From: Acidobacteriaceae bacterium
GTDB taxonomy: Bacteria > Acidobacteriota > Terriglobia > Terriglobales > Acidobacteriaceae
Assembly: GCA_030037705.1 (NCBI GenBank)
Contig: JASHQE010000039.1
Location: forward strand, 1 to 64,000
DNA length: 64,000 bases
Reading direction: 5' to 3'
The position numbers were made by a program, and so were the translations under genes. Under the pieces are notes generated by a model. It was not told where the DNA came from, did no database searches, and saw only the letters and a list, made by a program, of their open reading frames with translations. Below, piece after piece: positions 4,592 through 63,403 of this stretch (position 1 is the first letter of the stretch; every line of letters begins with the position of its first letter).

Positions 4592-5056
4592 ATGAGCCTG
4601 CTGCGACAGATCGTGGAAGGATTGCGGAAGTTCCTTGTTCCGCCGGCTGTGGAGATTCCGGCCGACCTGCTGAAGGTCGTGAATGTTACACGCGGCACTG
4701 TGGTGGCCACGCATCTCGAGGTGGCCCACAGCGGGGCAAAACGCAGAAAAGGGCTGCTCGGACGCGACCGCCTCAATGTGGGCGAAGGGCTCTGGATTAT
4801 TCCGTGCGAGTCAGTGCACACCTTCTTTATGCGGTTTCCGATCGATCTTGTCTATCTGGATCGCGAGAACCGTGTCAGGAAAGTCAGGAGCAGAGTCGGC
4901 GTTTGGCGGATATCAATCTGTTTGACCGCACACTCGGTGCTGGAGCTTGCCGCAGGCGCGGTTGACGGTACACAGACCCGGCAAGGCGATATGCTCGAAT
5001 TTACGCCCGCCGCACCCACTCCTGGAGCTGGTTGCATAAATGGTCTGGTCAGGTAA
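4592..5056 (+). CDS. DUF192 family protein
   Basis: HSGAKRRKGLLGRDRLNVGEGLWIIPCESVHTFFMRFPIDLVYLD; 3' end lies inside a repeat element. Confidence 0.85.
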   Translation: MSLLRQIVEGLRKFLVPPAVEIPADLLKVVNVTRGTVVATHLEVAHSGAKRRKGLLGRDRLNVGEGLWIIPCESVHTFFMRFPIDLVYLDRENRVRKVRSRVGVWRISICLTAHSVLELAAGAVDGTQTRQGDMLEFTPAAPTPGAGCINGLVR

Positions 5057-5157
5057 AGAAACTTCCCTCAGGGGCTAAAGCCCCAGTGTTCATGAGGCTT
5101 TTGCGGCACGACTAAAGTCGTGCCCTGTTACGAAACCATTTATGCAACGAGTTCTAG
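5022..5157. mobile_element. MITE-like element A: 23-bp TIR CTrGArCTsGTTGCATAAATGGT (20/23) around two CTAAAG-loop hairpins
   Basis: Perfect 14-bp inverted repeat GTTGCATAAATGGT (5031-5044)/ACCATTTATGCAAC (5135-5148); internal GGGGCTAAAGCCCC and GGCACGACTAAAGTCGTGCC. Confidence 0.75.
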
Positions 5158-7595: not shown

Positions 7596-7731
7596 CTAGT
7601 GTGGTGAGTCAGAAGTTCATAACATAAGTCGAAGTCCCGAACCGCAGATCCTTCGACTCCGGTCGCCGCGGCGACCTCCGCTCAGGATGACAGCGGCAAT
7701 TATGTTGCGAATTTAAGACTCAGAACACTAG
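7596..7731. mobile_element. MITE-like element B: CTAG-bounded, imperfect TIRs (27/35)
   Basis: GCACTAGTGTGGTGAGTCAGAAGTTCATAACATAA (7593-7627) vs reverse complement of 7700-7734; CTAG at both ends. Confidence 0.7.
7640..7693. repeat. Dispersed repeat AACCGCAGATCCTTCGACT-[CCGGTCGCCGCGGCGACC]-TCCGCTCAGGATGACAG, copy 1
   Basis: Shares flanks with the repeat at 7808-7869; internal GC palindrome differs. Confidence 0.75.
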
Positions 7732-7924
7732 GGCGTATCGGCATATAGCCTGATAACCTATGGGCAAAACGAGCAAGTTTTCCATTGAATGCGTGGAGCA
7801 CGAAGCGAACCGCAGATGTTTCGACTCTCCGCCGCGGCGGACCGCGGCGGACTTCGCTCAACATGACAGTGCTTGAGTTGCTTTTCAGCAACTTAGAGTT
7901 GGTCTATATGCCGATACAGCCTAG
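7728..7924. mobile_element. MITE-like element C: CTAG-bounded, TIR CTAGGssGTATCGGCATATAG (19/21)
   Basis: GTATCGGCATATAG (7735-7748) is the perfect reverse complement of CTATATGCCGATAC (7904-7917); CTAG at 7728-7731 and 7921-7924. Confidence 0.75.
7808..7869. repeat. Dispersed repeat AACCGCAGATGTTTCGACTC-[TCCGCCGCGGCGGACCGCGGCGGA]-CTTCGCTCAACATGACAG, copy 2
   Basis: Same flanks as copy 1; its 24-bp core is identical to 87-110. Confidence 0.75.
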
Positions 7925-8176
7925 GACGAGGAGCGGGCCGCCTACAATGCTCCGGATATCGATAATTCCAAAGTCGTATGGGCAAGAGAGATAGGCGCCA
8001 GGGATAATATGGAGTTAATCCACGACTATGCTGGCCGGAAGGTGTGGCTGGTTGAGCCGGACATGGTTCCGGCCAGGGTCTCGTCCTATCCCATACTCAG
8101 CCATGGAGAAGTATCGGCGCATGAAGCCGATAGCTGGAAGAGGGCGCGGGAAGGAATGCAGGAGTTCGAGCCATGA
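7925..8176 (+). pseudogene. 5'-truncated remnant (83 codons), C-terminal end of a probable membrane glycosyltransferase
   Basis: Open frame ERAAYNAPDIDNSKVVWAREIGARDNMELIHDYAGRKVWLVEPDMVPARVSSYPILSHGEVSAHEADSWKRAREGMQEFEP*; in-frame TAG at 7922-7924 inside element C border; stop overlaps next gene start (ATGA). Confidence 0.6.
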
Positions 8177-8961
8177 TCAATGGAAAGCGCGTTGCGGTGG
8201 TGATGCCGGCATACAATGCCGAGAAGACACTGGAACGGACGGTTCGTGAGCTCTCCGATGTGGTGGACATTAAGATCCTCGTGGATGACTCAAGCAAGGA
8301 TCAGACGGCGCAATTGTCGCGCAGTCTCGGTGTGCAGACGTTCATCCATGACGCCAACTATGGCTACGGACGCAACCAGCAGACCTGTTATCGCGAGGCC
8401 TTAGCCGCCGGTGCGGACATCGTAGTAATGGTGCACCCCGATTATCAGTACACGCCTTTACTCGTGCCGGCTATAGCGGGCATGATTGCCAGCGGCGTAT
8501 ACGATATGGTGCTGGCCTCGCGCATCCTGGGCCGCGGAGCGCTGAAAGGCGGCATGCCGCTCTACAAATACGTCTTCAATCGCATGCTGACTGCGTTTCA
8601 AAACCTCTTTCTGGGCGTGAAGCTTTCGGAGTATCATACGGGCTTCCGGGCGTTTTCACGGGAACTGCTGCAGACGCTGCCGCTGCTCGAGAACTCGGAT
8701 GATTTTGTCTTTGATAACCAGATGATCGCACAGGCTATCATGTTCGGTTTTGAGATCGGCGAGATTTCCTGCCCGACAAAGTATTTTGAAGAGGCGTCAT
8801 CGATCAACTTTCGGCGCAGCGTGAAGTACGGCCTGGGCGTGCTGGCGACGACCGTGGGCTTCATGGCCCACAAGCTGGGCATTTACCGGGCGCCGCGTTT
8901 TGGGGCGTCGGGGCGCAAGGTGACGGAAAAATATTACTCGCAAAACGCGCAGAGGTCGTGA
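8173..8961 (+). CDS. Glycosyltransferase family 2 (dolichol-phosphate mannosyltransferase-like)
   Basis: VAVVMPAYNAEKTLERTVREL, ILVDDSSKDQT, VVMVHPDYQY, EYHTGFRAFSRELL. Confidence 0.9.
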   Translation: MINGKRVAVVMPAYNAEKTLERTVRELSDVVDIKILVDDSSKDQTAQLSRSLGVQTFIHDANYGYGRNQQTCYREALAAGADIVVMVHPDYQYTPLLVPAIAGMIASGVYDMVLASRILGRGALKGGMPLYKYVFNRMLTAFQNLFLGVKLSEYHTGFRAFSRELLQTLPLLENSDDFVFDNQMIAQAIMFGFEIGEISCPTKYFEEASSINFRRSVKYGLGVLATTVGFMAHKLGIYRAPRFGASGRKVTEKYYSQNAQRS

Positions 8962-63283: not shown

Positions 63284-63403
63284 TTAGAGCAGTTCCCAAA
63301 TTCATATGGACTTTTTAAAAGTCGTATAGGGCGGCGTTTTCTTGAGGAAAACGCCACTTGGCAGGCATGCTTTCGGACTGCACCAATTTGGGAACTGCTA
63401 TAA
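63284..63403. mobile_element. MITE-like element D: 19-bp TIR TTAkAGCAGTTCCCAAATT, two internal hairpins
   Basis: Perfect 15-bp IR 63288-63302/63385-63399; internal GACTTTT-T-AAAAGTC and GGCGTTTTC-TTGAG-GAAAACGCC; TA at 63285-63286 and 63401-63402. Confidence 0.75.

Follow-up and report, generated by a model that had tools for sequence, protein, structure and literature searches.

How do two short elements with different inverted repeats come to share a single CTAG? The question is raised by positions 7596-7924 of the window, the whole 64,000-nucleotide stretch that was analysed, which belongs to contig 61 of a fragmented MAG of a soil acidobacterium (5.13 Mb, 332 contigs, 85% complete). An earlier note on this DNA had described here two adjacent CTAG-bounded MITE-like elements, B and C, with differing TIRs and one CTAG (7728-7731) in common. 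The letters of the window bear this out, the positions of both elements being exact, and searches of the genome identify B and C as members of separate high-copy families. Very probably B is an IS630-derived and C an IS5-derived MITE, both with a preference for CTAG, and one was inserted at the border of the other to give B-CTAG-C. The features of the locus are as follows.

7596-7731, plus strand: element B, a 136-bp MITE with IS630-type TIRs and CTAG at both borders (B proper is 7599-7728 if TA is the duplication)
7600-7618, plus strand: left TIR of B, TGTGGTGAGTCAGAAGTTC
7709-7727, minus strand: right TIR of B, the minus strand reading TGTTCTGAGTCTTAAATTC
7638-7693, plus strand: hairpin core in B, CCT..GG subfamily
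7728-7731, no strand: CTAG common to B and C, with TA at 7729-7730 as the presumed target duplication
7728-7924, plus strand: element C, a 197-bp MITE with IS5-type TIRs and CTAG borders (C proper is 7731-7921 if TA is the duplication)
7732-7748, plus strand: left TIR of C, GGCGTATCGGCATATAG
7904-7920, minus strand: right TIR of C, an inverted-repeat match to the left arm
7806-7869, plus strand: hairpin core in C, GTT..AC subfamily
7925-8176, plus strand: remnant of a membrane glycosyltransferase gene, the last 83 codons and stop
8173-8961, plus strand: family 2 glycosyltransferase (GT2) gene, in relatives directly 3' of the intact homologue of the truncated gene

The ends of B match at 14 of 20 bases, and the arms of C (7728-7748 and 7904-7924) form a 21-nt inverted repeat that is 90% complementary. 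Among the best 40 candidates scored in each similarity search of the genome, both B and C gave tens of matches ending exactly at CTAG borders. The end pattern of B occurs 106 times in the genome (50 + 56) and that of C 141 times (69 + 72), with zero occurrences of the reversed control in each case. Copies and borders were counted in about 0.88 Mb (878 kb) of sampled, MITE-enriched genome stretches, which hold 39 paired copies of B, 136-161 bp in size and without coding capacity, and 48 paired copies of C. Across 85,462 species genomes, the exact C-end pattern was found in only 14 stretches, all from Acidobacteriota, including records of Granulicella, Edaphobacter and Terracidiphilus.

The affiliation of each family is indicated by full-length ISs with matching TIRs, the search for which had been proposed in the earlier note, and which were found in relatives for both elements but in different transposase families. 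B-type ends flank CTAG-bordered elements of about 1.16 kb in two relatives (G011 contig 49:3-1159 and G030 contig 410:7266-8427), which encode a DDE_3 transposase (IS630 family, NF033545) with E-values of 5e-85 and 2e-82, respectively. B thus has its TIRs in common with elements carrying an IS630 transposase and, judged by its ends, probably derives from an IS630-family (Tc1/mariner-like) element as a non-autonomous MITE, without a transposase of its own. C-type ends flank an 837-bp IS in the congeneric genome G015 (C363:719-1555), which encodes DUF4096 and DDE_Tnp_1 in two frames and matches NF033580 (IS5 family) at 4e-48. The same ends and transposase motifs recur in Acidobacteriales at L221 (837 bp) and L224 (768 bp), two loci that share TIRs with C and are assigned by transposase motif; C is a probable non-autonomous derivative of such an IS5-family element with a DUF4096/DDE_Tnp_1 transposase. 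NF033580-type elements of this two-frame organization are presumably members of the IS427 subgroup. Since B ends flank IS630 and C ends flank IS5 transposases, the two MITEs come from unrelated transposase families, and the IS5-group origin suggested in the earlier note holds for C but not for B. In the window's own genome assembly (85% complete, fragmented), neither a DDE_3 (IS630) transposase nor an IS5 transposase bearing the C inverted repeats was found, so that the mobilizing enzymes are known only from relatives, whose IS630 and IS5 transposases are of the types that may act on B and C in trans. The IS5-type transposases of the own genome were considered as partners of C; these carry other inverted repeats (AAGCTGTTTCATAACC, AACCCATCTCATAAATG and AAGCAGTCTCATAAATG), and their partnership is not proven.

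The earlier note explained the shared border by successive insertion into CTAG, an account that would be undermined by copies without CTAG borders, or by B and C always occurring together as one fixed repeat. Within the 878 kb sampled, CTAG is present on both sides of 64 of the 87 paired B and C copies and on at least one side of 85, while B and C occur mostly as single copies and meet in several end combinations, supporting the insertion of two distinct MITEs. Further support comes from junctions with four more CTAG-bounded families, D (AGCTGGTTGCATAAATGG, 136 bp), E (AGCAGTTCCCGAATG, 89-120 bp), F (GTCTCTGACCG, 89-151 bp) and G (CAGGCTGCGGAAAAA, 159 bp). Altogether, 24 shared CTAG borders in nine family combinations were counted among 125 paired elements (B-D eight, B-C six, C-D three, C-E two, and five other combinations one each), as against about 0.02 abutments expected by chance (random placement, N^2/L arithmetic). 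The six B-C junctions differ in end pairing, orientation and flanks, and are thus independent. Longer arrays include a chain of four CTAG-linked MITEs on the same contig beyond the window (C61:99973-100686), in the order B, C (with E nested inside), B and D, and chains of D, B and C (C134:5241-5700) and of B, D and C (C121:250-707). Full or partial IS5-type elements of this MAG are part of such arrays as well, their CTAG borders meeting B-type ends on contigs 134, 140, 188 and 265. Many contig ends fall inside elements, an indication that assemblies break at CTAG arrays.

These arrays can be accounted for by a simple mechanism for tandem MITEs, in which every insertion restores the target site on either side of the new element. 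Insertion would duplicate the central TA (or the whole CTAG, in the model of the earlier note), leaving CTAG at both ends, and each inserted element would then offer two fresh, already tolerated CTAG targets. We infer an order in which either B or C entered the CTAG border of the other, giving B-CTAG-C; repeated CTAG insertion would link members of at least six families, two to four at a time, into chains throughout the genome. In the MITE-enriched sample, where CTAG is under-represented (617 observed, 978 expected), about 19% of element ends are shared and 171 of the 617 CTAGs are already element borders, so that random choice among CTAGs suffices for chains and no special mechanism is needed.

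The earlier note attributed both elements to IS5-group transposition with a 4-bp YTAR duplication. Classical IS5 duplicates YTAR, most often CTAG (PMC5493358), and the IS5-related MITEPsy1 duplicates CTAG or YTAA (PMC3189936); C itself has IS5-type ends. IS630, by contrast, duplicates TA and prefers CTAG (Tenzen and Ohtsubo 1991, as cited in PMC2170065). CTAG borders by themselves identify neither the family nor the length of the duplication, and are uninformative here because they fit both a CTAG duplication and a TA duplication with element ends G...C. A 4-bp duplication predicts equal borders, and among non-CTAG sites these were seen only in one B copy on contig 93 (CTAT..CTAT) and in a C-like MITE in G003, with TTAG on both sides. 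The other deviant borders of B are mismatched (TTAG..CTAG and CTAG..CTAA), and the C copies comprise CTAG..CTAG (36 of 48), TTAG..CTAG (three) and CTAG..CTAA (one), with CTAG..CTAA also bordering the L221 IS. Among B, C and D copies with TA intact, nine outer-base and two inner-base deviations were counted (p = 0.065), a suggestive bias toward TA duplication within YTAR. Several copies of C contain an element of family E, reading CCCATA[E]TAGG in place of the empty site CCCATAGG seen in many others, and the inner bases of E are mostly constant while its outer bases vary; E therefore duplicates the 2-bp TA, which is decisive for E itself. An E-family MITE within the window (63284-63403) has TTAG..ATAA borders, as a TA duplication at TTAA predicts. 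Joining the flanks of B and C copies revealed no clear empty sites among the matches listed. The 4-bp duplication is thus not supported, given the mismatched borders of most non-CTAG copies and the TA duplication of the nested E; TA duplication is likely for B, and for C it is slightly favored over the 4-bp alternative. With the mismatches falling mostly at the outer base, and IS630 transposases flanked by B-type ends twice independently, the reading of both B and C as IS5-group MITEs with a 4-bp YTAR duplication is improbable.

Two other readings concern how B and C came into contact. That they form one composite repeat, moving or duplicating as a unit, could be argued from the recurrence of the B-right:C-left junction (C164:53-389) and of the order C-B-D (C61:100113-100686, and again on C147), but is contradicted by the solo copies that predominate in each family and by the varied ends and orientations of the B-C junctions, whose flanks and sequence variants differ by locus. 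Only individual loci could be duplicates, and the composite is hardly credible as a general explanation. A little less improbable, though still unlikely, is contact through deletion or recombination between separate insertions, rather than insertion into a shared CTAG. Its appeal lies in the adjoining membrane glycosyltransferase gene, of which 83 C-terminal codons are left, starting at the right CTAG of C, with the 5' portion of about 500 codons gone exactly at this border. The intact homologue has about 580-617 codons in relatives (598-617 in G001, G002 and G009), where the gene order is CpaB, CpaC, DUF192, GT87, pilin, membrane glycosyltransferase and GT2; the window has the pilin genes and GT2 as well. 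A search of the genome for the detached 5' half found only an intact paralogue on contig 2. The B-C pair thus marks the edge of a deletion or rearrangement, but what was lost is not at the border between the two MITEs, being on the far side of C or of B, while shared borders are common across the genome and the deletion would have had to land precisely on CTAG. Insertion of one MITE at the CTAG border of the other remains the preferred explanation. Elsewhere in the window, the left end of a D-family MITE (5022-5157, CTGG..CTAG borders) provides the final codons and the stop codon for a DUF192 gene (4592-5056).

B and C are new, but their kinds are known, and the locus represents ordinary MITE biology, with the added feature that CTAG is the common target of two unrelated families, which form chains as a result. 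B resembles the IS630 family (IS630, ISY100) in its CTAG borders and in its inverted repeats, which in relatives lie on either side of genes for IS630-type transposases; the preferred target of IS630 is the TA in CTAG, according to Tenzen and Ohtsubo 1991 as cited in PMC2170065. It differs from IS630 elements in its lack of a transposase, its size of 136-161 bp and its hairpin repeat. C resembles NF033580-type members of the IS5 family, whose transposases are bordered by its inverted repeats in relatives, and in its CTAG/YTAR target; unlike classical IS5 (4 bp), its duplication looks like TA, and it lacks a transposase. MITEPsy1 of Pseudomonas syringae is likewise a short IS5-related MITE at CTAG/YTAA, in tandem with another element at one locus, but is unrelated in sequence and low in copy number, and multi-family CTAG chains are not reported in the available text (PMC3189936). 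The locus offers a clean case of two transposase superfamilies using one tetranucleotide, with mixed arrays as the outcome.

B and C also contain a common 22-nt internal repeat (7638-7659 and 7806-7827), and the motif AACCGCAGAT..TTCGACT-hairpin-CGCTCA..ATGACAG that the earlier note saw in both is indeed present. This core is a repeat of its own, independent of B and C: its pattern has 161 matches in the 878 kb, some of them by chance. Of these, 86 fall within B or C copies that were paired; the other 75 do not, though some lie in copies of B or C for which pairing was not possible. Two subfamilies are distinguished by compensatory pairing (GTT with AC 57, CCT with GG 34, mixed 4), and sequence changes in the inner stem leave its complementarity intact. 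Since the B core is CCT/GG and the C core GTT/AC, the core was not simply inherited by one MITE from the other. The C core is more stable than its shuffles (z -4.64), and the B core alone is no more stable than its shuffles (z -0.14). A search against Rfam gave just two hits, both well short of the gathering cut-offs and neither overlapping B or C. As a short, high-copy imperfect palindrome occurring both solo and inside other repeats, the core is similar to REP and RAYT-associated repeats (PMC3733652), but differs in having no GTAG or CGTC tag by eye. A RAYT origin was considered and rejected: no solo core lies within about 1.5 kb of seven Y1_Tnp genes, and the one flanking copy is part of a C element. 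Several unrelated transposases in Terriglobales genomes may conceivably use CTAG as a common docking word that is renewed with every insertion, with harmless mixed arrays exchanging independently mobile hairpin cargo, a tentative idea that we consider somewhat doubtful.

Other small palindromes occur in these elements. A second palindromic repeat (CCCAGGTCTTCCGCCGCGGCGG...) is found at positions 60-130 of the window and inside two F copies (C196:262-412 and C209:3993-4119). In B, C, E and F alike, the unit TCCGCCGCGGCGGA recurs within the hairpin loops as a nested mini-palindrome, and an extra palindrome, CCCTTCGACTTCGCTCAGGGCAGGC (or the form CCCTGAGCTTGTCGAAGGG), lies within the core or F (C50:20067-20227, C265:8462-8619 and C196:262-412).
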